Origin: Cellulomonas sp. WB94
GTDB taxonomy: Bacteria > Actinomycetota > Actinomycetes > Actinomycetales > Cellulomonadaceae
Reading direction: 5' to 3'
Length of the DNA: 64,000 nucleotides
Assembly (NCBI RefSeq): GCF_003115775.1
Contig: NZ_QEES01000002.1
Location: 682,001 to 746,000 of the forward strand
The notes under the pieces are model-generated. The model was not told the origin of the DNA, ran no database searches, and saw only the letters and a program-made list of their open reading frames with translations. Below, piece after piece: positions 5,887 through 19,393 of the stretch. The translations under genes and the position numbers were made by a program. Within the stretch, counting starts at the first letter, position 1. Every line of letters begins with the position of its first letter.

Positions 5887-6981
5887 CTACCCCGTCAGCA
5901 CGGTGTCGACGCGGAAACCGCCGAGGCCGCCGGGGACGCTGAAGGGCGGCGCCGGCTCGGGCGTCACGGGCGCCGGCGTCTCCCCGGGGCTGGGGGTCGG
6001 GGTGGGTGTCGGGGTCGGGGTGGGCAGCACGTCCGGGACCGTGCGGCACGCCCCCCCGATCAGGTAGCCGAGCCGCACGCCGGACCGGCACAGCCCGCTC
6101 CTGAACTCGAGGCCTGCGGTCGCCGTCGACTCGACCCGCTTGCTGGACTGCGGAACCGTGTCGTTGTTGCGGACGCGGACGAAGACCTGGGCCGTCGTGA
6201 AGTCCACGGCGAAGTCGACGAGCTCGGCGTCGTTGCGTGCCGCGTAGCTCGATGCGCTCGCCTGCATCGCGGACTGCGACGTCACGTCCTGCAGGCGGGT
6301 TCCCGCGAGCGCCCAGAAGTCGGCGTGCTCGCTCGCGCCCGCATGGTGGTCGAAGTAGGCCTCGAGCGAGCCCTGCCACTGGTCGGCCGCGGCGAGCGCC
6401 GCCGCGTCGGCCGCGGTGGTGGACTCACGCCGGTCGTTCGTCGCCGAGCCGATGACAGCGATGGCCAGGAACGTGACGAAGAGGAGCGCGACCGTCGCGG
6501 GGACGAGGAACAGGCTCACGCTGCCCCGGTCCGAGGCCTCGACGCGGAACCGGAACGGCATCGTGTCGGCATCGCCTCGCGCGACGAACATCGCGCCGAG
6601 CAGCCCGAAGGCCACCCACTCGACGAGGGCGAGCAGGATCGACCACGAGAACGCAGGCATCCCGACGATGAGCAGCGCAGCCACGCCGAGCACCGACTGG
6701 AGCAACCACGCGACGACCGCGGCGACGACGACCGTCGGGACGGCGTCGGTCCGCGCCACGAGCCCCCGTCGACTCCGGACCGACCGTGTGACGATCGCCC
6801 CGATGAACGTCAGCCGGACTGCCGTCAGCACGTGCCCCGTCGCGACGAGGGTCGTCGTGTCGAGCGTCGCGAGGACCTGGTCGAGCGCGGGCAGCAGGAG
6901 CCAGTACACCGCCGCGAACGTCATGAGGTCGAGCACCACGAACAGCCGCACGCCACGCACGTCGACCCGCCGCCGGAACAT
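5887..6981 (-). CDS. TadG-like pilus-assembly protein fused to an N-terminal multi-helix membrane domain
   Basis: The 364-residue protein has two parts. Residues 1-145 form about four hydrophobic helices with no recognised family. From residue 149 a TadE/TadG-type N-terminus begins (ASDRG followed by [15 protein letters not shown]), with the prepilin-like glycine at residue 153, and continues into the TadG hallmark [11 protein letters not shown]. The tail is a (Pro-Thr)n linker and a proline-rich end. Ordinary TadG proteins begin at the prepilin-like segment, so the membrane domain is an addition. It is the last gene of the leftward pilus locus, 11 bp after a lipoprotein gene. It probably anchors or regulates the surface-exposed part of the pilus machine; that role is inferred. 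Confidence 0.72.
5992..6024 (+). repeat. G-rich microrepeat encoding a Pro-Thr linker, potential G-quadruplex
   Basis: The plus strand holds six runs of three to five G separated by 1-4 nt. On the coding (minus) strand the same tract encodes alternating Pro and Thr near the C-terminus of the TadG-like protein. The repeat could slip and change linker length in frame, and the G-rich strand could fold into a quadruplex. Confidence 0.6.
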
Positions 6982-6992
6982 CGTCGGGCTCC

Positions 6993-7622
6993 TCAGCCCT
7001 TCAGGCGCAGGGTGCGCAGCGCGTCGTACGCGACCGACGAGGTCAGCCCACCGGCGGGGGCCTCGGCCGAGATCGACACGAGGTACGTCCTCGCCTCGTT
7101 GCGGGTCGTGACGAGAATCCCGTCCAGCACCTGCGCCGTGCCGTTGGCGTCGAGGTTCAGCGTGAACGTCATCTGGACCGCGTAGGCGAACCCTTCCCAC
7201 GTCGCCGCGCTGCGGACGATGTCGGTGGCAAGTCCGCTCCCGCCCAGCTGGGCGGCGGCCACGACCGACGCGGCGTTCACGGCATCGTCGTTCGCGCCCT
7301 TCTGCGGCGTGACGTTGACGATGACCGACGCACGCGCTGCGCCGTCCGCACGGAGGTCGACCGACATCCCCGCCGCGCCGCGATCGGTCTTCGTCGCGGT
7401 CATCCCTGACGGCACCTCGATGCTGAACACGTCGGTCTCGTACTCTGCGGAGCCGTCGAGCCCGCTCGTCGGCTCGATCGTGACCGTGCCGCCGGACGGC
7501 GCGACCTCGTAGCGGGGCGTCGAGGCGCCTCCGGTCGGGTTGCCGGTTCCGCCGGCGCAGCCCCCGAGGGCCACGATGCCGGTCAGTGCCACCGCGGCGG
7601 CCACCCTTGTCATGCTGCGCAT
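6993..7622 (-). CDS. secreted lipoprotein of the pilus locus
   Basis: This 209-residue protein begins with basic residues, a hydrophobic stretch and the lipobox ALGGC (Cys about 21), so it should be lipidated and anchored on the outer face of the membrane. The mature part is beta-rich with no family I recognise; it shares the general look of LpqN/LpqT-type lipoproteins (for example the phrase FSIEVPSGMTATKTDRG). I chose the ATG at 7622 because AGGAG lies 8 nt upstream. The ATG at 7613, which overlaps the previous stop as ATGA, is an alternative. It sits between two pilus surface proteins and probably works with them. Confidence 0.7.
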   Translation of the reverse strand: MRSMTRVAAAVALTGIVALGGCAGGTGNPTGGASTPRYEVAPSGGTVTIEPTSGLDGSAEYETDVFSIEVPSGMTATKTDRGAAGMSVDLRADGAARASVIVNVTPQKGANDDAVNAASVVAAAQLGGSGLATDIVRSAATWEGFAYAVQMTFTLNLDANGTAQVLDGILVTTRNEARTYLVSISAEAPAGGLTSSVAYDALRTLRLKG

Positions 7623-9019
7623 GCTGCCCACTCCTGCCATCCGTTGTCTCCGAGGTAGTACGCACCGGTCGAGGTCTCGCTGGACGTCGAGGCGCCGAGG
7701 GCGAACGAGAGCCCCCCGATCGCCGGCGCCTCGAGACCGAGCGCGGCGTCCACGAGGTTGGACGAGTTCACGTCCAGGAACTGCGCGGTGACCTCGCCGT
7801 TCGCCCTGGCCTGCTGGAAGATCAGCGGAACCGCTGTCGCCTGCGCCATCGACGAGCCACCGGGGACGACCGCGAGCACGCCGATGCCCTGGAGCGCCGC
7901 GGTGACCTGCGACCGGTTGGCGGCGGTCACGTCGAACGAGGCGGAGACCTGCACCCCCTTGCCGCCGCCACCCTGGAGCGGGATGCCTGCCAGAGCCGTC
8001 AGCGACCCCGCGCCCTCAGCGGTCGCCGCACCGTCGTATGAGACCCCGGTGATGGTGTAGCTCTCGTCCATGGTCGTCGCGACGACCATCTCGATGCCCG
8101 CGGAGCCCTCCCCGCCGGCGCCCCAGCTGCCGTCGGTCGACGACAGCCCGAGCTGAACGGCCGCCTCGGCGTCGAGCGTGACCTTGTTGTAGACCGTCGT
8201 GGACCCGGTGACGTGGTCGAACTTCACACCGAGCGCGCTCTGGTAGTCGGCCGAGGCGCTCCCGCCCGCGGTGATCCCACCGACCGCCGCGCTTCCGTTC
8301 GCCGAGACACCACCCTCGTAGTACGACGCGTCAGGTGCGGGCGGCGTGTAGTCGTGGCCCGCGACCTTGTCCCAGAGCCAGCTGAGGACCTCGACGCCCA
8401 CCCCGGCGCCCGGCACGAGGGCGCTCGCCACGGACGTGGTGCCCTCCTTCGCGACGGTCCGCTCGACCCAGCCCGTGAACTCGTCCGCCTCGGCCTTCGA
8501 GTCGAAGGTGTACTCGACTCCCGTGCCGACGAAGGCCCCGGCGGACACCGATGCCTCGGCACCGAGCTCACCGCCGTACTCGCCGATGAAGAGCTTGCCC
8601 TGCGCCTCGCCGGCGCTCAGCGACGCGTCCGCGCCGAGCTCGCCGCCGACCGTGACCTTGTACGTCCCGTCGCTCCGCTGCTCGACCGACATGTCACCGC
8701 TCGAGCCGAGCGAGATGAACGACACGCTCACGCCGGCCTCGAGATGCGTGCCGTCCTTCTGCACCGTGCACGGGCCCTCGGGTGGCCCGTCCGGGACGGC
8801 GGGCCCCGCCGTGTCGGAGCCGCACGTCGTGCCGAACGCCGAGCAGAGCTTCGCGGCGATCTGGTTGCCCAGCGGGGTCGCCAGCATGAGGAGCGACATG
8901 ATGATCACGGCCACGAACATGGTCGCGCCGAGGTACTCGACGCTGCCGGCACCCTCGTCACGCGAGGCCGCCGCGCGCCGCCAGAACGAGGCCGGCGTCC
9001 TGCGGTCGGTGGTGCGCAT
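7610..9019 (-). CDS. large Flp-pilin-like surface protein with long beta-rich ectodomain
   Basis: The 469-residue protein has the N-terminus of a Flp/TadE pilin: a charged leader, Gly23, then AGSVEY with Glu at +5 after the predicted TadV cleavage site, and a hydrophobic helix at residues 31-50. Normal Flp pilins stop there, but this one continues for about 420 residues. The ectodomain is rich in Gly, Ser, Ala and Thr and has two near-identical segments, GGELGADASLSAG (125-137) and GGELGAEASVSAG (149-161). It also has cysteines near residues 59, 66 and 84 and one near the C-terminus. I recognise no family for the ectodomain. Position and N-terminus suggest a minor pilin, adhesin or tip protein. 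Confidence 0.7.
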   Translation of the reverse strand: MRTTDRRTPASFWRRAAASRDEGAGSVEYLGATMFVAVIIMSLLMLATPLGNQIAAKLCSAFGTTCGSDTAGPAVPDGPPEGPCTVQKDGTHLEAGVSVSFISLGSSGDMSVEQRSDGTYKVTVGGELGADASLSAGEAQGKLFIGEYGGELGAEASVSAGAFVGTGVEYTFDSKAEADEFTGWVERTVAKEGTTSVASALVPGAGVGVEVLSWLWDKVAGHDYTPPAPDASYYEGGVSANGSAAVGGITAGGSASADYQSALGVKFDHVTGSTTVYNKVTLDAEAAVQLGLSSTDGSWGAGGEGSAGIEMVVATTMDESYTITGVSYDGAATAEGAGSLTALAGIPLQGGGGKGVQVSASFDVTAANRSQVTAALQGIGVLAVVPGGSSMAQATAVPLIFQQARANGEVTAQFLDVNSSNLVDAALGLEAPAIGGLSFALGASTSSETSTGAYYLGDNGWQEWAACAA

Positions 9020-9043: not shown

Positions 9044-10582
9044 TCAGGGTGCCTGGACGGGGACGTCGGCGAGGCGGAAGCGCTCGGGGACGTCGATGGT
9101 GACGGTCGAGCCGCCCGGGTCCGGCCACAGCACGGTCGCCGTCACGGACTCGCCCTGCTTCATGGCCGCGACGAACCACTCGTCGGCGACGATCGCCCGC
9201 AGGTCCTTGTCCGTGCTCGACGCGCCGCGGACGTAGTCCGAGGGGTAGTACCGGGCCGCGGCACCGAGGAGGGTCACGTTGTGTGCGCCCGCGCCCATCG
9301 CGTAGGCGCTCAGGCCGCGTGAGATCGCCCGGCCCTGGACGAAGTCCCCGAAGATCCCGGTCGGCTGACCGGTCCCGGAGGCGGTGCGCTTCACCTCGAG
9401 GCTGCCCACCAGGTAGGCGCCGACGCGCCGGACCGACGCCGCACGCACCGTGAACCCCGGCACCGCGGTCACCTCGACCGCGGTGGGCCCGCTCGCGCTG
9501 GGGCCCGTGGCATCCGGGACCGCCACGGCGGCACCGGCGACCTCGACGGTCGCGCCCGCCGACTTGGCGGTGAAGCGGATCTCGACGCGCCGGTTGGCCG
9601 CACGGGCCTCCGGCGTCGTCCCGGCCACGGCCGGCTCGCTCTCCCCGCGCCCCTCACCGGTCACGGCGAAGCCCCCGCCGAGCGCGGGGACCAGGCGGTC
9701 GACGACCGACTGGGCGCGACGCACCGACAGGTCCTGGTTGTACGCGTCCGAGGCCACGTCGTCGGTGTGCCCGGTGACGTGCACCTCACCCTCGGCACCC
9801 TTGGCCTTGATCGCGGCCGCTGCGGAGTCGACGACGGCCTGTGCCGCGGGGGTGAGGTCGGCCTGGTCGACGGCGAACAGGACGTCCGACGCGAGCGACA
9901 CGGTGACCTCCTCCTGCGTGACACGGGTCGACGAGGAGTCGTCGAACGCGACCGAGAAGGCGTCGATCGGCGCGCTCACGTAGGTGATCTGCCCCGTGCG
10001 CCCGAGCTCGACGGGAGTCGTCGCCAGCTCCTCCGACGCGCTCAGCCTGACCACCGGGACGTCCGCCACGAGACCGAGGTACGGGAAGAGGACCCCGACC
10101 GTGTCGCCTGCGGGCGCGCCGTAGAAGCCCTGGCTCGTCGACGGCTTCCCCGCGGTCGCCGCGAGGTAGTCCCGAGTCACCGCAGGCTGCTCCTTGTCGT
10201 CCGTCCCCGGGGGGTACACGGTCGCGGACGAGAGATCGACCAGCCTGACCGCGTTCGGTCCGACCGGCCCTGTCGTCGTCTTGAGCGCCTGCCCCACGCT
10301 GAAGCTCGCGCCTGCCGGGGCACCTGCCGCGATGCGGTACTCGACCGTGAGGAGTGCGACGCCGTCCTTGACCTGGACCGGCGCGACCTGGACCTCCACC
10401 GGGACCGAGAGATAGGTCCCCTGAGCCGTCACGGGCTGCGGGCCGGAGGTCGGCTCGACGCTCGCGCTCGCGGTGCCGCTCGGAGCTGCGGTCAGGGACG
10501 CGGTCGGGTTCGGCTCGGTGCCCGCGGTGCAGGCGGTGAGCAGCACGAGGCACGCGACCAGACCGGTGAGGGCACGACGCAC
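9044..10582 (-). CDS. lipoprotein with OmpA-like peptidoglycan-binding domain
   Basis: The protein has 512 residues. The GTG start follows GGAAGGA at good spacing and gives a lipoprotein signal with lipobox LLTAC (Cys18). A Ser/Thr/Pro-rich linker and an unassigned beta domain (about 55-215) lead to an OmpA-like domain (about 225-340). That domain has the binding motif TGHTDDVASDAYNQDLS plus RRAQSVVDRL and ANRRVEI. A further 170-residue domain of unknown type follows. OmpA domains grip the peptide stem of peptidoglycan. In a Gram-positive this would tie the pilus machine to the wall. It lies between the Flp pilin and the large pilin-like protein and is probably co-transcribed with them. Confidence 0.8.
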   Translation of the reverse strand: MRRALTGLVACLVLLTACTAGTEPNPTASLTAAPSGTASASVEPTSGPQPVTAQGTYLSVPVEVQVAPVQVKDGVALLTVEYRIAAGAPAGASFSVGQALKTTTGPVGPNAVRLVDLSSATVYPPGTDDKEQPAVTRDYLAATAGKPSTSQGFYGAPAGDTVGVLFPYLGLVADVPVVRLSASEELATTPVELGRTGQITYVSAPIDAFSVAFDDSSSTRVTQEEVTVSLASDVLFAVDQADLTPAAQAVVDSAAAAIKAKGAEGEVHVTGHTDDVASDAYNQDLSVRRAQSVVDRLVPALGGGFAVTGEGRGESEPAVAGTTPEARAANRRVEIRFTAKSAGATVEVAGAAVAVPDATGPSASGPTAVEVTAVPGFTVRAASVRRVGAYLVGSLEVKRTASGTGQPTGIFGDFVQGRAISRGLSAYAMGAGAHNVTLLGAAARYYPSDYVRGASSTDKDLRAIVADEWFVAAMKQGESVTATVLWPDPGGSTVTIDVPERFRLADVPVQAP

Positions 10583-10653
10583 GAAGGTTCCTTCCAGAGG
10601 AGGACAGGGCGAGGGCCGGGCGCCGACCTCGGACGCCCGGCCCCGACCGTATG

Positions 10654-10875
10654 TCAGAAGCTGTCGATCGCCGACTGGATCTTGGTGCCGATCGCCGCAC
10701 CGAGCGTCGGGCCGAGAGCCACGAGGGCGATGATGATCGCCGCGACGACGAGGATGATGCCGACGTACTCGACGGCGCCCTGACCGCTGTCGTCGCTGCG
10801 GTGGAGCCGCCCGCGCACTGCGCCCACAACGGCGAGGCGAGCGGCAGCGACCTTGCGGACGAGGTTCTCCATCAT
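10654..10875 (-). CDS. flp: Flp/Tad type IVb major pilin
   Basis: This 73-residue prepilin has a 31-residue basic leader ending in DDSG, then QGAVEYVGIILV with Glu at +5, the standard site for TadV-type prepilin peptidase cleavage and methylation. The mature peptide is about 42 residues, almost all of it the hydrophobic assembly helix (IILVVAAIIIALVALG). Two ATG codons are adjacent; AAGGAG lies 6 nt before the first. A terminator separates it from the regulator gene upstream, so it may have its own promoter and be made in larger amounts than the assembly proteins. Confidence 0.92.
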   Translation of the reverse strand: MMENLVRKVAAARLAVVGAVRGRLHRSDDSGQGAVEYVGIILVVAAIIIALVALGPTLGAAIGTKIQSAIDSF

Positions 10876-11633: not shown

Positions 11634-12853
11634 CGCACGGCCTCCTTCTCCTGCTGCAGGCGGACGTCGACCGACGTCCCCCGACCCGGCCGACCGGTGA
11701 CCCGGACGTCGCCGCCGTGCAGCGCAGCGCGTTCACGGATGCCGAGCAGCCCGAAGTGCTCCTGGCCGTCCTGCGGGACGAGGAGCTCCAGCTCCGTGCC
11801 GGGGTCCGCCATGAGCCCGCGGCCGTCGTCGGTCACCACGAGCCGGACGACGTCGTCGTCGTCGTCCCAGGTCGCTCGCACCGTGACGAGTCCCGCCCCC
11901 GCATGCCGGCGGACGTTCTCGAGCGCCTCGAGCAGGATCGACCGCAGGTCGTCCGCGGCCGCGGCGGCCAGACTCGCGAGGCCGTCGTCGATCTCGGCGT
12001 CGACGGCGATCTCGGTGCGCTCGGACCACTGCCGGCACAGCGTCGCGAGCATCAGGTGCGGCGGCTCCGAGGCCCGGCGGAGCTCGCCGAGCGCGAACCG
12101 CGTCGCGGTGTGCGCGGCCCCGCACGCCGACTCGAGCTGAGCGGCGAGGTCCTGGACCGAGTCCTGCGCCGAGGTGTCGCGCAGCTGCCGCGTCAGCGCC
12201 TGGGTGAGCATCACGATCCCCGCGAGGTCGCCGGCCACGGTGTCATGGAGGTCGCGGGCCATCCTGACCCGCTCGAGGGTCGCCGCCCGGTCCGCCTGCA
12301 CGTGTCGCAGCTCGTGGGCGATCGACGCCTGGGCCCGCAGACCGGCACCGATCCGTGAGCCCGCCCAGGCCATCGCGACGACGACCACGGGTGCACCCGT
12401 CACGAGCGCCCAGTGCGGCTCGTCCGGCGCCTCGTTGATCGACACGAGCACGAGCAGCGCGATCGGGGCGGCCATGACGACCGCGAGCTGGAAGCCGACG
12501 GCCGCACCAAACAGCGCGACCGTCGCTGCTGCGTACATCACCATCGGCTCGAACTCGGGCGTCACCCAGACGACGATCGCGGTGATCACCAGGTCGGCGG
12601 CGAGCAGCACGCCCGACCGGCTCAGCTGGTCGCCGCGCCGCTGCCACGTCCGCGCCGGGACGTAGGAGAACGGGACAGCCAGGACGGAGAACGTCAGGGC
12701 CACGCCCGTGAGCGTGCCGGAGACCACGGCGTCAAGGACGCCGAGTGCCAGGACGGCGAGCCGGACATGGCACAGGAGCCGCACGACGCTCCCGATGGCC
12801 TCGACGTCGACCGCCGGCTCCCTGCCTGTCAGCCGTACGTCAGAAGATGTCAC
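11630..12853 (-). CDS. NarX/DesK-type sensor histidine kinase
   Basis: The 407-residue kinase has about five or six hydrophobic helices in residues 25-165, a short coiled linker, then a HisKA_3 dimerisation domain with the phospho-acceptor His203 in MARDLHDTVAGDL. The C-terminal ATPase domain shows ENVRRHA (N box), DDGRGL (G1) and GHFGLLGI-like EHFGLLGIRERA. There is no large extracellular domain, so the stimulus is probably sensed in or at the membrane. The GTG start overlaps the end of tadC by 14 nt, and the regulator gene overlaps its stop, so it is embedded in the pilus operon and probably controls it. Confidence 0.93.
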   Translation of the reverse strand: MTSSDVRLTGREPAVDVEAIGSVVRLLCHVRLAVLALGVLDAVVSGTLTGVALTFSVLAVPFSYVPARTWQRRGDQLSRSGVLLAADLVITAIVVWVTPEFEPMVMYAAATVALFGAAVGFQLAVVMAAPIALLVLVSINEAPDEPHWALVTGAPVVVVAMAWAGSRIGAGLRAQASIAHELRHVQADRAATLERVRMARDLHDTVAGDLAGIVMLTQALTRQLRDTSAQDSVQDLAAQLESACGAAHTATRFALGELRRASEPPHLMLATLCRQWSERTEIAVDAEIDDGLASLAAAAADDLRSILLEALENVRRHAGAGLVTVRATWDDDDDVVRLVVTDDGRGLMADPGTELELLVPQDGQEHFGLLGIRERAALHGGDVRVTGRPGRGTSVDVRLQQEKEAVR

Positions 12854-13724
12854 GGAACGAGTCCATGTTGGCCAGCAGCACGGCCGCGACCATGAGCAGC
12901 AGCGCGCCCGGCACGATCGTCGTGGTGATCACGAGCGACACCTTGGGTGCCGCCTTGGCAGCCTGCTGACGGACACGCTGCCCGTACTCCTGCCGCACGT
13001 CCGCGGCGATGCCCGTCAGCGCGTCGGACAGCGGGACACCGAGCTCCTCGGCCTGCAGCATCGCCGTCACGAACGTCCCGACGGCCTCCGACCGGGTCCG
13101 GTCCCGCAGACCGAGGAACGCCTGCCGGCGCGAGACGCCGACCGACATCTCCCGCAGCGCCGTCGTCATCTCCTGGGCCAACGGCCCCTCGTGGAACTCG
13201 CAGACCCGCTCGACCGCCTGGCGGAACGCCAGACCCGCGGCGACCGTCACCCCGAGGACGTCGAGGAAGTCCGGCAGCTCGGTCTCGATCTGGGCCTGGC
13301 GCCGCCGACCCGTCGTCACGAGCCATACCCGCATCCACGAGCACAGGACGGCCCCGAGGAGGAAGCCGACGGAGGTCTGGCCGAGCACGGCGAAGATCAC
13401 CACGAGGATCCCGGACAGGACGAGGAACCCCATCTGGCGTCGGACGTACACCGTCACGGTGATGCCGTCGGGACGTCCGGCACGGCGGATGGTCTCGTCC
13501 AGGCGGCCGAGCCGCGCGCTTCCGTACGTCCGCATCGCGGTGCCGACCAGCCGCTTGCCCAGCAGGTCGAGCAGGGGGACGAGACCGCGGACCTGACGCA
13601 CGTCGCCGTGCGCGGAGCGCATCGATGCCTCGACGTCCTCCAGGCCCGTCGTGCGCATCATCTGCGCCCCGACGATGCCGACGACGGTCAGCGCAGCGGC
13701 GAACAGCGGGATCAGGAGCACCAC
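12840..13724 (-). CDS. tadC: Tad pilus inner-membrane platform protein TadC
   Basis: This 294-residue protein belongs to the type II secretion F (GspF) family and with TadB forms the membrane platform on which Flp pilins assemble. It starts with a hydrophobic helix, has two more near residues 95-135, a cytoplasmic helical domain (including LPDFLDVLGVTVAAGLAFRQAVERV split around the GspF core), and a final helix before NMDSFRDIF. Its start is 1 nt after the tadB stop, with no room for an independent promoter, and its end overlaps the kinase start. Confidence 0.9.
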   Translation of the reverse strand: MVLLIPLFAAALTVVGIVGAQMMRTTGLEDVEASMRSAHGDVRQVRGLVPLLDLLGKRLVGTAMRTYGSARLGRLDETIRRAGRPDGITVTVYVRRQMGFLVLSGILVVIFAVLGQTSVGFLLGAVLCSWMRVWLVTTGRRRQAQIETELPDFLDVLGVTVAAGLAFRQAVERVCEFHEGPLAQEMTTALREMSVGVSRRQAFLGLRDRTRSEAVGTFVTAMLQAEELGVPLSDALTGIAADVRQEYGQRVRQQAAKAAPKVSLVITTTIVPGALLLMVAAVLLANMDSFRDIF

Positions 13725-13725
13725 G

Positions 13726-14645
13726 TCAGATGTCCACCTTCGTGAGCCGCTGGATCGCGATGAACCCGACGGCGAACAGGCTCGTCGCGACCACGACGAC
13801 GATCTGCCCGACGAGCGTGCCGAGCATCAGGTCGAGCGATCCGGGCGAGATCACGTTCATCAGGAACATCGACCCGACCCCGATGAGGATCACGGCGTAC
13901 CCGGAGAACGCCGCGCCGACGGTCGCCGTCTTGATCTCCCGACGCAGCTGACGGCGCTCCTCGAGCGTCGAGGCGATGTTCGACAGCGCCGAGACGAGCG
14001 CACCGCCGGCCTTCCCCTGGATGATCAGCGTCTGCACGAGCACGAGCAGCTCGCGCGACGGGAGTCGCGCCGACAGGTGCTGGAGCGCGGACGCCAACGA
14101 CTGCCCGACCGCGAGCTCGGCGCTGACCTGGGCGAGCTCGGCCGACGCAGGGTCGTCCATCTCGCGCGCGGCCAGCTCGATCGACCGGGACACACCGAGA
14201 CCCGCCGAGGCCCCGTTGGCGAGCAGCCGAGCCAGCTCGGGGAGCTGAGTCACGAACTTCTCGATGCGCGCCTGGCGACGGCGGTCGAGCCACTTCTTGA
14301 ACGACATCACCACGGCGATCCCGGCGGCGAACGAACCGTACCGACCCACCAGCGGCTGCGTCCCGAGCACCCCGACGGTCGTCGCCGCCGCGACACCGAG
14401 CAGGACGCCCGTCGGCGACCAGCCCACGAGCCCCGATCCGGCGAGGAGCGCCGAGAGCCGCGCGCCCCACGTCGTGCGCCGGACCTGCTCGTCGAGCGTC
14501 GCCAGCACGTGGTTGCGCCACGCCGGCCGAGAGTCGACGGCGGCGAGCAGCCGTCGCCGGTACGCACGGTTCTCCTGGAGGACCGAGGTCGTGACGACGG
14601 CCAGGACGAGCGTGGCGAACAGGATGGTCAGGATCGGGCCGACGG

Positions 14646-14649
<4 letters not shown>
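13726..14649 (-). CDS. tadB: Tad pilus inner-membrane platform protein TadB
   Basis: This 307-residue GspF-family protein begins with an N-terminal helix, a cytoplasmic charged linker, two helices near residues 75-110, a GspF domain with FVTQLPELARLLANGASAG and MDDPASAELAQVSAELAVG, and two C-terminal helices. Its start overlaps the tadA stop (ATGA), so it is translated with the motor ATPase it must contact. The pair tadB-tadC is the standard heteromeric platform of Tad systems. Confidence 0.92.
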
Positions 14650-15938
<1,289 letters not shown>

Positions 15939-15940
15939 CG

Positions 15941-16318
15941 TCAGCCTTCCGGGAGGTCGGCGTCACGCGTGACAGTGAACGAGCTCGAGGTGATCCCGGG
16001 CAGCACGATCGGGACGCGGACCTCGAGCCGCACGCAACGACCCGCGCAGGACGGCACGGCCGCCGTGCCCGTCGTCAGCGACTCGATGGGGGCCCAGCTC
16101 GGCAGCTGGCGCTCCACCTCGGTCCGCACGTCGTGACCGAGCGTCGCCGCCCGGGCGCCGTCGCGCGCAGCCTTCTCGGTCGCCGCCCCGATCTGGGCCA
16201 GGAACAGCCCCTGCACGCACATCGACGCGACGACGAGCAGGATCGCCACGAGGCCGATGAGCTCGACGGACGCGGCTCCGCGGTCCGACGCGCCGACGGC
16301 CTGCCGCAACGCCCTCAT
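15941..16318 (-). CDS. TadE-family pseudopilin
   Basis: The 125-residue protein has a 14-residue basic leader, then Gly14 and AASVEL with Glu at +5, the TadV cleavage pattern, followed by a hydrophobic helix (IGLVAILLVVASMCVQGLF). The mature C-terminal domain is beta-rich with a cysteine pair (SCAGRC). TadE proteins are minor pseudopilins needed for Flp pilus assembly. Its start overlaps the stop of the CpaE-TadE fusion gene (ATGA), giving two consecutive TadE-type modules in the operon. Confidence 0.88.
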   Translation of the reverse strand: MRALRQAVGASDRGAASVELIGLVAILLVVASMCVQGLFLAQIGAATEKAARDGARAATLGHDVRTEVERQLPSWAPIESLTTGTAAVPSCAGRCVRLEVRVPIVLPGITSSSFTVTRDADLPEG

Positions 16319-17901
16319 CGGGGTTCCGCGAAGACGGCGGCGGTCGCCGCAGAGGTCAGGTGGAGCCCCGGGACCACCGTCGGCGCCACGACCTGGACCT
16401 GGACGGCGCTCGGACCGACGTCGACGCTCGCACCGTCGGCCCACGGACCGCTCAGCTCGCCGAGCGCGTCGGCCCGGGCCTGGTCGACGGACGCCGCGTC
16501 GTAGGACCGTGCGATCCCGATCGTGCGCGCACCCTCCTGGGCGGCGTTGCGGGCGAGGAGGAACCCGGCGCCCCACACGACGCACTGCGCGCACACGAGG
16601 AACACGAGGAGCCCGAAGGCGAACACGAGGGGCAGCTCCACGGCGGACTGCCCGCTGTCGTCGCCCCGCCGAGCGCGCCGTGTGCTCCGCCGATCGCCCG
16701 CAGGTGGTGTCGACGCGACCGCGCCGGCGCCCGCCAGGGCGAACGCGCTCTCGGACGCCCCGTCGTCGCGCGCCTTGTCCAGGATGGTGACGAACCGGGC
16801 CGCTGCGGCGTGCGCGGGCGTCGCGGTCGTGAGGATCGTGGCGGTGTTCATCGCCGACTGGAACGGCGCTCCGCCGTCCGGGATCACGAGCGAGACCGGG
16901 GCGTCGACGATCCGGTGGGCCAGCGACTCCTGGACCTCGGAACGGCTCGAGCGCCGGTTGAGCACGACGTCGACCGTCGTCGGGAGCCGCACCGCGAGCC
17001 GCTCCCACAGGGCGAGGGTGCGCCGCGCGGCCCGCAGCGCCGGCAGGTCCGGAGTCGCGACGAGGAGCGCGACGTCGGCGTACTCGAGGATGAGCGCGGT
17101 CGCGTCGTCGAGGTGCGAGCCGACATCGATCACCGAGACGTCGAACTGGTAGCGCAGAGCGTTGACGACCGCTCGGGCCGCGTCGGCCGTCATCTCCTCG
17201 GCGCGTTCGCCGTCGTTCGGTGCGGGCAGCAGCCTGAGCCCGCTCTCGAGGTCGTACGAGGTCTCGCGGAGCACGCGACCCGACATCTCGCCGGCGATGT
17301 CGACGAGGTCGACGATCGACCGCCGGGTGTGGACCCCGGCGTAGGCAGCCAGGTCCCCCGACTGCAGGTCGAAGTCGATGAGCGAGACCGTGCGCGTCGC
17401 CGTGAGCGACTGCGCGACGAGCATGGCCACCGACGTCGCGCCGACCCCGCCCTTGGCGCCCGCGACAGCCACGACGCGACCGCCCCGACCGCCCGTGAGC
17501 TCGGAGGTGACCGCCGATCGCGCCGCGACCGCCCACTGGGCGACCGCCTCGATGCGCGAGACGATCTCGTTGAGGCTCGACGACTCGGAGATGACCGAGC
17601 GCGCGCCCGACTCCATCGCGGCAGCGAACTGCTCGGGTCCCGCGCTCTCGACGAGCAGCACGACGCCGACCAGCGGGTGGGAGGCGCCGACCGCGCGCGC
17701 GACGGCGTGACCGCGGCCGCCCTCGAGCGCCTCGTCGATCACGACGACGTTGATCCCGGTGCTGCGGCTGAGCGTGTCCTCGAGGGACGCGCCGTCTGCG
17801 GCGACATGAGCGAGGGTCAGGTTCTCTGCCTCGGCCAGCATGTGCGCGAGGCGCTGCTGGGTCGCGTCGCTCCCGGTGGCGAGGAGGATCTCGATGCTCA
17901 T
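16315..17901 (-). CDS. CpaE/TadZ-type ATPase fused to a TadE-like pseudopilin
   Basis: This 528-residue protein joins two parts that are normally separate. Residues 1-125 resemble the receiver-like domain of CpaE/TadZ. Residues 140-390 are a MinD/ParA-type ATPase with the deviant Walker A AGAKGGVGATSVAMLV and the switch region SLIDFDLQSGDLAAY; this family positions the pilus machine. After a basic linker (GDRRSTRRARRG) comes a complete pseudopilin N-terminus, DDSG then QSAVELPLVFAFGLLVFLV, with Gly417 at the predicted TadV site and Glu at +5, and a 111-residue TadE-like tail. I found no ATG, GTG or TTG in the linker that could start the pilin separately. The orientation, ATPase inside and tail outside, fits prepilin topology. 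Confidence 0.85.
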   Translation of the reverse strand: MSIEILLATGSDATQQRLAHMLAEAENLTLAHVAADGASLEDTLSRSTGINVVVIDEALEGGRGHAVARAVGASHPLVGVVLLVESAGPEQFAAAMESGARSVISESSSLNEIVSRIEAVAQWAVAARSAVTSELTGGRGGRVVAVAGAKGGVGATSVAMLVAQSLTATRTVSLIDFDLQSGDLAAYAGVHTRRSIVDLVDIAGEMSGRVLRETSYDLESGLRLLPAPNDGERAEEMTADAARAVVNALRYQFDVSVIDVGSHLDDATALILEYADVALLVATPDLPALRAARRTLALWERLAVRLPTTVDVVLNRRSSRSEVQESLAHRIVDAPVSLVIPDGGAPFQSAMNTATILTTATPAHAAAARFVTILDKARDDGASESAFALAGAGAVASTPPAGDRRSTRRARRGDDSGQSAVELPLVFAFGLLVFLVCAQCVVWGAGFLLARNAAQEGARTIGIARSYDAASVDQARADALGELSGPWADGASVDVGPSAVQVQVVAPTVVPGLHLTSAATAAVFAEPR

Positions 17902-18608
17902 CAGCCCGCCGCCCTGTCGCCGAGGAAGACCTTGTCGGCCGGCGCCTGCTCCTGGTCGTCGCCGGCACCGCGCAGGGCCAGACGGAGCTTAACCGAGAAG
18001 CTCTCGATGTAGGCGAGCCGCAGTGCATCGGCCGACGTCAGGGCGAAGGTCACCGGGACGCCGCGGGAGGTCGAGAAGTTGCCCGACGAGTCGGAGCCCT
18101 CGACGTCGGCAGGGAGACCCACCTCGAGGACGAGGGCGTTGGACACCCAGATCTCCGAGCGCGCCGGGTTCAGGTCGTCGCCCGCGACGGTCGCGATGAT
18201 GTCCACGTGGTTGCCGGGCGAGACCTTGCCCGCCACCCCGGTCTCGGCGTCGACCACGATGGCCACCTCCCGGTAGCCCGGCTGCACGCCGGGTCGGGGG
18301 ACCAGCATCCCGGTCTGCACCGTCGAGCCGGCCGTGTACCCCGTCGCCGCGACGAGGCCGACGACGTCCTTCTCCGTGTGCAGCGCCGTGGCCGGCACCC
18401 AGCGCTCCGGGACCTCGACGATCGTGACCATGTCCGACTCGATGGGCTCGAGCGCAGCCACGTCGCGCGTGAACTGCAGCACGCCCGTCATCGGGCCCAC
18501 CTTCGAGCTGACGTCACCGACGAACGTGAGGACCGCGAAGAACACCACGATCGCCCCGATCGACGTGAGGACGAGCAAGAGGGCACCACGGCGTTGACGC
18601 GGGTTCAC
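17901..18608 (-). CDS. cpaB: Flp pilus assembly protein CpaB/RcpC
   Basis: The 235-residue protein has one N-terminal membrane helix and an extracytoplasmic SAF-like domain (TGYTAGSTVQTGMLVP) followed by the CpaB/RcpC domain with VAIVVDAETGVAGKVSPG and HVDIIATV. CpaB proteins help assemble or guide the Flp fibre outside the membrane. The GTG start has GGAGGA 5 nt upstream and overlaps the previous stop as GTGA. The end overlaps the next start, so the operon is tightly packed here. Confidence 0.88.
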   Translation of the reverse strand: MNPRQRRGALLLVLTSIGAIVVFFAVLTFVGDVSSKVGPMTGVLQFTRDVAALEPIESDMVTIVEVPERWVPATALHTEKDVVGLVAATGYTAGSTVQTGMLVPRPGVQPGYREVAIVVDAETGVAGKVSPGNHVDIIATVAGDDLNPARSEIWVSNALVLEVGLPADVEGSDSSGNFSTSRGVPVTFALTSADALRLAYIESFSVKLRLALRGAGDDQEQAPADKVFLGDRAAG

Positions 18609-19393
18609 GCAAGTCCTCCAGGGGTCACGGCAGCAGATGAGAGTGCGACGTCGGTCAGCGGAAGCTGGCAGAAGACGCAGACCTGCCCCCAGCCGGCGCG
18701 CCCGCAGGACGGGCAGATCGGGAACGTGCGTGTCACCTCGGGGCGCAGCACGTGGCCGACGATGTCCTCGAGCCACTCGTGCAACGTGGTCACCTCGACC
18801 CATCGGGCGCACCGCCAGGGCGAGGCACCCGGTCCGAGCTCCAGCTCGACCCGCTCGGCCGGCAGGCTCGCGTCGTCGACGCCGGCGAACGCGCTCGCCG
18901 ACCGCGCGATGACGGCGATGTACCCCTCGAGCGGCGGGAGCTCCCGGGCACGGGACACCCGCTGGAGCTCCCAGTCCACGAGGAACCTGCTCGCCGGCCA
19001 CAGGCTCGCCGCGTGGAGACCGAGGTGCGGGTTCGGGCGCTCGAGCGAGCCGACCGACGAGAGCAGCGCGAACGTCGACGACGCGCGGGTCACCATCGCC
19101 GATGCCGCACCCGCGAGCCCGAGCTCGCTGTCCGGGAACATCGCGAGCGCCGACGCCACCACGAACAGCGCGGTGACCGGGACGTCGCAGCGCAGCAGAC
19201 CGATGTCCTCGCGTCCGTAGGCGAGCCGCACCGCGCGCGACTCCCGCCAGCCGACCTCGTCGCTGCTCAGCAGGAGCACCTGCGAACCGCGGGGTGTCGC
19301 GTCGACGGCCTCAGCGATCGCCTGCCGCTCGGCGACAGCCGTGGTGGCACCGCGAGGCGCCACAGCATGGTCGGCCACCACGATGACGGGCAC
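18605..19393 (-). CDS. zinc-ribbon protein of unknown function, first gene of the pilus operon
   Basis: This 262-residue soluble protein opens with an alpha/beta segment (MPVIVVADHAVAPRG) and has a long middle region with no recognised fold. It ends in a treble-type zinc ribbon: CPSCGRAGWGQVCVFC has two CxxC pairs. Similar proteins often accompany actinobacterial Tad loci, but I know no tested function. It overlaps cpaB by 4 nt. A regulator, adaptor or assembly factor is possible; the sequence shows only the metal site and the linkage. Confidence 0.7.
   Translation of the reverse strand: MPVIVVADHAVAPRGATTAVAERQAIAEAVDATPRGSQVLLLSSDEVGWRESRAVRLAYGREDIGLLRCDVPVTALFVVASALAMFPDSELGLAGAASAMVTRASSTFALLSSVGSLERPNPHLGLHAASLWPASRFLVDWELQRVSRARELPPLEGYIAVIARSASAFAGVDDASLPAERVELELGPGASPWRCARWVEVTTLHEWLEDIVGHVLRPEVTRTFPICPSCGRAGWGQVCVFCQLPLTDVALSSAAVTPGGLA

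Follow-up and report, generated by a model that had tools for sequence, protein, structure and literature searches.

A CpaE/TadZ ATPase fused in frame to a TadE pseudopilin with a retained prepilin processing site in Actinomycetota

In Cellulomonas sp. WB94 a CpaE/TadZ-type positioning ATPase and a TadE-type pseudopilin are encoded as one protein by a single gene of a tad locus. The cpaE-tadE fusion gene occupies 16315..17901 on the minus strand of the window (the whole stretch of 64,000 nucleotides that was analysed), where a single frame of 528 codons is read from the ATG at 17901 to the TGA at 16315-16317 and gives a product of 528 aa that is conserved over its full length in related genomes. 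The architecture is real, old and widespread. Its parts are known and their arrangement is new relative to the literature searched, in which no description of a CpaE-TadE fusion or of a prepilin-peptidase polyprotein was found, most subscription papers being outside the scope of the search. Judged from the sequence, one chain is translated and cleavage after Gly417 probably yields CpaE and mature TadE from it. The first-pass annotation had described one CpaE/TadZ-TadE frame, possibly a self-separating polyprotein, and the frame is confirmed by its coordinates, its domains and its conservation. The domain identities and the retained processing site of the fusion also stand, and the word self-separating is to be dropped as the cut would be made in trans.

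The fusion gene in its tad operon

The gene belongs to a compact minus-strand tad operon in the order cpaB, fusion, second TadE-like gene, tadA, tadB, tadC, histidine kinase, response regulator and Flp-type pilin. Upstream lies cpaB/rcpC (17901..18608, minus strand), with a likely GTG start at 18608 and 235 aa, which matches TIGR03177 with E=7.2e-29 (over the cut-off) and Pfam RcpC with 7.8e-19. Its stop overlaps the start of the fusion in the sequence TGATG, and the stop of the fusion in turn overlaps the ATG of the second TadE-like gene in the sequence ATGA. This second gene (15941..16318, minus strand) is unfused and matches Pfam TadE with E=0.0035, below gathering. On the same strand follow the secretion ATPase gene tadA/cpaF (14646..15938, T2SSE E=2.2e-70), the platform protein genes tadB (13726..14649, T2SSF E=3.1e-19) and tadC (12840..13724, T2SSF E=1.8e-20), and the gene of a 73-aa flp-type major pilin (10654..10875), for which the Flp_Fap match is weak (E=0.0072) and the motif DDSG^QGAVEY was read from the sequence.

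Further genes on the minus strand flank these. Just upstream of cpaB, at 18605-19393, a protein of 262 aa with CxxC pairs is encoded that gave no Pfam match. Directly 3′ of the flp gene, at 9044-10600, lies a gene whose product has an OmpA-family domain (E=1.3e-15) and begins like a lipoprotein, in a genome of Gram-positive type. The 469-aa protein at 7610-9019 has a Flp-like prepilin start, DEGAGSVEYLG, and then a long Gly/Ser/Ala-rich part without Pfam match, and may be a modular pilin. In the 364-aa protein at 5887-6981 a membrane part of about 150 residues, apparently polytopic, is combined with an in-frame Tad domain (PF13400, TadE/G-like, E=4.4e-06, carrying DRGSVSLF), and the protein is possibly a second unusual fusion within the same cluster. 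Two more TadE matches are located elsewhere in the same genome (L096 and L097, G000 C2 near 273357 and 903471).

Domains and the conserved cleavage site

The AF2 model of the fusion protein, built with 75 sequences, has a mean pLDDT of 91.6 and a pTM of 0.62. Residues 1-135 (17497..17901, minus strand) form a receiver-like (REC) domain with an alpha/beta fold, matched by Pfam Response_reg with E=6.6e-06, below gathering; a Response_reg match is found in 59 of 75 fusions. In this domain Asp56 (17734-17736, minus strand), the position being read by eye, occupies the place of a His in the family consensus VVLVHE, and the domain is therefore probably unphosphorylated in most members. Residues 142-392 (16726..17478, minus strand) are a MinD/ParA-like ATPase domain matched by Pfam AAA_31/CbiA, with the deviant Walker A KGGVGAT at residues 150-156, within the motif AKGGVGATS, and its signature lysine K150; K150, G151, G152 and G154 are invariant in 75 aligned fusions. 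Foldseek matches the fold of the ATPase domain to 3ea0, MinD, FleN and ParA structures, and aligns 3fkq, which we take to be the structure of Eubacterium rectale TadZ, over both the REC and the ATPase domains in 373 columns. PMC13170226 cites Xu et al. 2012 for the E. rectale TadZ structure. Against the Ssd equivalog TIGR03815 (CpaE_hom_Actino) the window protein scores 58.5 bits, below the NCBIfam cut-off of 154.45.

Like Caulobacter CpaE and E. rectale TadZ (3fkq), the fusion thus has a REC-like domain followed by a MinD/ParA-like ATPase with a deviant Walker A, and like other CpaE/TadZ genes it is encoded with tadA, tadB, tadC and cpaB. The known CpaE/TadZ proteins are stand-alone, whereas the C-terminus of CpaE in the window runs into a prepilin. 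It does so through a linker of residues 385-416 (16654..16749, minus strand) that is predicted to be disordered (pLDDT<50 at 385-415) and is rich in Arg/Lys before the Gly417 codon (16651..16653, minus strand), the putative prepilin-peptidase cleavage site G^QSAVE. The mature pseudopilin would be residues 418-528 (16318..16650, minus strand), of which AF2 models 418-463 as a long helix followed by a small alpha/beta domain, and Gly417 is predicted to sit between the disordered linker and the pilin helix. Taken alone the tail of the window protein matches TadE profiles weakly, with E=2.5 for Pfam and E=0.015 for NCBIfam TadE_Rv3655c, neither of which reaches the cut-off, but 36 of 75 orthologous fusions match Pfam TadE, the best with 2.3e-09. 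The junction carries a class III signal with Gly417 (-1), Glu422 (+5) and a hydrophobic helix; these features and the deviant Walker A had already been noted in the first-pass annotation and are all present. With TadE/TadF pseudopilins the fusion shares the GxxxxE signal, the hydrophobic helix, the small alpha/beta domain and the tad locus. A TadE leader is usually short, and many of the unfused sisters have one of about 7-16 aa, whereas here the leader holds a whole ATPase.

Of the 11 columns that are invariant in the alignment of 75 fusions, 26-77% identical to the window protein, Gly417 alone falls outside the CpaE half; the other ten are within it, including four in the Walker A. When the unfused TadE proteins are included the cleavage-site Gly is present in 88/88 fused and 42/42 unfused orthologues. 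At +5 all 42 unfused and 83 of the fused ones have Glu, and the other 5 fused ones have Asp. K/R make up a fraction of 0.30 over the final 20 residues of the linker as opposed to 0.13 over the remainder, and this basic stretch before Gly417 resembles those of ordinary prepilin leaders. Prepilin leader peptides differ in length, with Gly or Ala as their last residue (PMC10191384), and TadV is the enzyme that matures TadE and TadF (Tomich 2006, cited in both PMC4322843 and PMC10191384). Cleavage after Gly417 is the best supported reading because Gly(-1) is known for prepilin-peptidase cleavage and is invariant in all fusions examined; constancy of this residue over such divergence is hard to explain otherwise, so that cleavage is likely retained.

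The first-pass annotation had named TadV as the cutting enzyme, and this does not hold for the window genome. No TadV was found in its tad locus, and the single A24 peptidase found in the genome is a 272-aa PilD-type protein with an A24_N domain, encoded on another contig (C7) where it adjoins PilM- and PilN-like genes of a separate type IV pilus cluster. All of the fused genomes tested (61/61) carry an A24 peptidase, and since 209/222 genomes of the family do so regardless of fusion, the enzyme is required for cleavage but its presence is no evidence of it; as a discriminating correlate of fusion its presence is uninformative. Counted from the listed positions, the distance from the fusion to a peptidase gene is at most 13 kb in 17 of the 61 fused genomes, and in 7 it is at most 3 kb.

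The proposed course of events is that cpaE-tadE would be translated as one chain, with CpaE/TadZ in effect serving a TadE prepilin as its cytoplasmic leader, 417 residues long. The TadE helix would insert the chain N-in/C-out and the prepilin peptidase of the cell, here of PilD type, would cut after Gly417. The ATPase would thereby be freed at the cytoplasmic face and mature TadE would stay in the membrane, the two being produced 1:1. To our knowledge a folded leader of 417 residues would be far longer than any known leader; this length, and the need to assume that a prepilin peptidase would accept it, count against cleavage.

Distribution and switching between fused and unfused genes

Strong CpaE matches in Actinomycetes, with duplicates removed, gave 130 distinct orthologues, of which 88 are fused and 42 unfused, and 9 further fusion loci occur in other families of the phylum (f60, f67, f82 and f98). 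The closest named match, in Cellulomonas cellasea NBRC 3753, is 77% identical across all 528 residues, and full-length fusions at about 31-77% identity extend to several dozen genomes of this family as well as to further families of its order, class and phylum. A search of plasmids gave no match to the fusion. In one genome a second copy of cpaE-tadE (L081, G210 C1 near 3435251-3436836) is split across two frames; it may have decayed, or its sequence may contain an error.

In the 42 unfused orthologues cpaE and tadE are side by side with the same neighbours and often overlap as ATGA or GTGA, the TadE start often being at -4 from the CpaE stop. The f37 and f35 genomes (for example L142 and L153) have an orthologous CpaE, the same gene order and the same TadE, in two commonly overlapping genes as opposed to the one frame of the window. 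Two tad genes in one frame are also known from another actinobacterium, Micrococcus luteus, whose tad-2 encodes a TadB-TadC fusion. Unlike CpaE-TadE it joins two platform proteins, and no processing site between them is described (PMC4322843).

The CpaE tree, which was made by a quick method and has long branches, requires at least 8 changes between fused and unfused, with fused clades nested among unfused f37 rows. Under equal costs a fused ingroup ancestor saves one step over an unfused one, and the answer differs with other cost ratios. Loss of the stop, or of the frame offset, between overlapping cpaE and tadE would create the fused gene. Fusing and splitting of such neighbours would be tolerated and recurrent since the cut would restore the ordinary two-protein state, and the frequent switching fits a near-silent fusion in which the peptidase would restore two proteins. 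In f37 the C-terminus of CpaE often resembles a leader, DRG[AS]V-x-F-RRR (fused L109, L138, L143 and L148; unfused L142 and L153); the four fused proteins retain it and continue into a second and genuine leader, DRG^AVTLEF, as if the stop had been lost later.

Alternative readings and what the fusion would mean

A sequencing or assembly error that removed a stop and a start between cpaE and tadE, which the first-pass annotation had named as a threat to the fusion, has next to no probability. The fusion is conserved at 77% in C. cellasea NBRC 3753 and at 26-61% in many others, in many independent assemblies, and is therefore due neither to chance nor to assembly. In ten pairs of related fusions dN/dS is 0.09-0.65 for the linker, 0.07-0.19 for CpaE and 0.14-0.41 for TadE; the linker values are below 1 and the linker is therefore under coding constraint in the fusion frame, so that error is ruled out as the source of the fusion. 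It is also very improbable that TadE is made mainly from a second, internal start, the full-length protein being a by-product of a lost stop codon. The unfused sisters do use ATGA-type coupling, and 72/88 fusions have at least one in-frame ATG, GTG or TTG in the linker, mostly GTG, which in 24/88 lies within 40 codons of the Gly and is accompanied by an SD-like stretch, so that extra internal initiation may be possible in these relatives. The positions of these codons are not conserved among the fusions, however, and 16/88, the window included, have none. The start-codon scan of the window's linker found no in-frame ATG, GTG or TTG and an internal TadE start there is rejected; the 32 codons earlier seen to be free of starts belong to an even longer start-free stretch, since the closest in-frame start codon on the upstream side, the ATG of Met351, lies 66 codons before Gly417 within the ATPase fold, where no purine-rich SD is evident by eye.

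The fusion could also be left uncut for a functionally important time or in a functionally important fraction, TadE anchoring the positioning ATPase at the assembly site and cutting being late or regulated. Caulobacter CpaE is described, in PMC13170226, at the inner membrane around CpaF, where it is thought to be bound via an amphipathic helix, and CpaE therefore works at the membrane beside the platform; the fusion would supply it with a membrane anchor, and the linker, disordered in the AF2 model, could serve as a tether. In a permanently uncut protein, on the other hand, the invariance of Gly(-1) across such divergence would lack a known reason, and the repeated switching between fused and unfused implies that separate proteins suffice. 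An important uncut stage is unlikely overall; as a permanent state the uncut tether is disfavoured, and as a transient or regulated state it may occur. Unlikely as well, in our estimate, is cleavage as a built-in assembly checkpoint, in which uncut CpaE-TadE would bring the ATPase to the membrane site of TadE insertion and the cut would release CpaE only after correct placement of TadE. If true, localisation, stoichiometry and pilus initiation would be coupled.

If the chain is cut after Gly417, as we favour, a prepilin peptidase would be separating a bacterial polyprotein whose "leader" is a folded ATPase of 417 residues. The range of substrates accepted by prepilin peptidases would then be wider than supposed, and the fusion would offer a natural handle on the CpaE:TadE stoichiometry. 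Should cutting not be immediate, there would be a physical link between a positioning ATPase and a pseudopilin, whose roles are poorly understood. For annotation, pipelines are likely to name cpaE-tadE genes by one half only, and the fusion is widespread in Actinomycetota.
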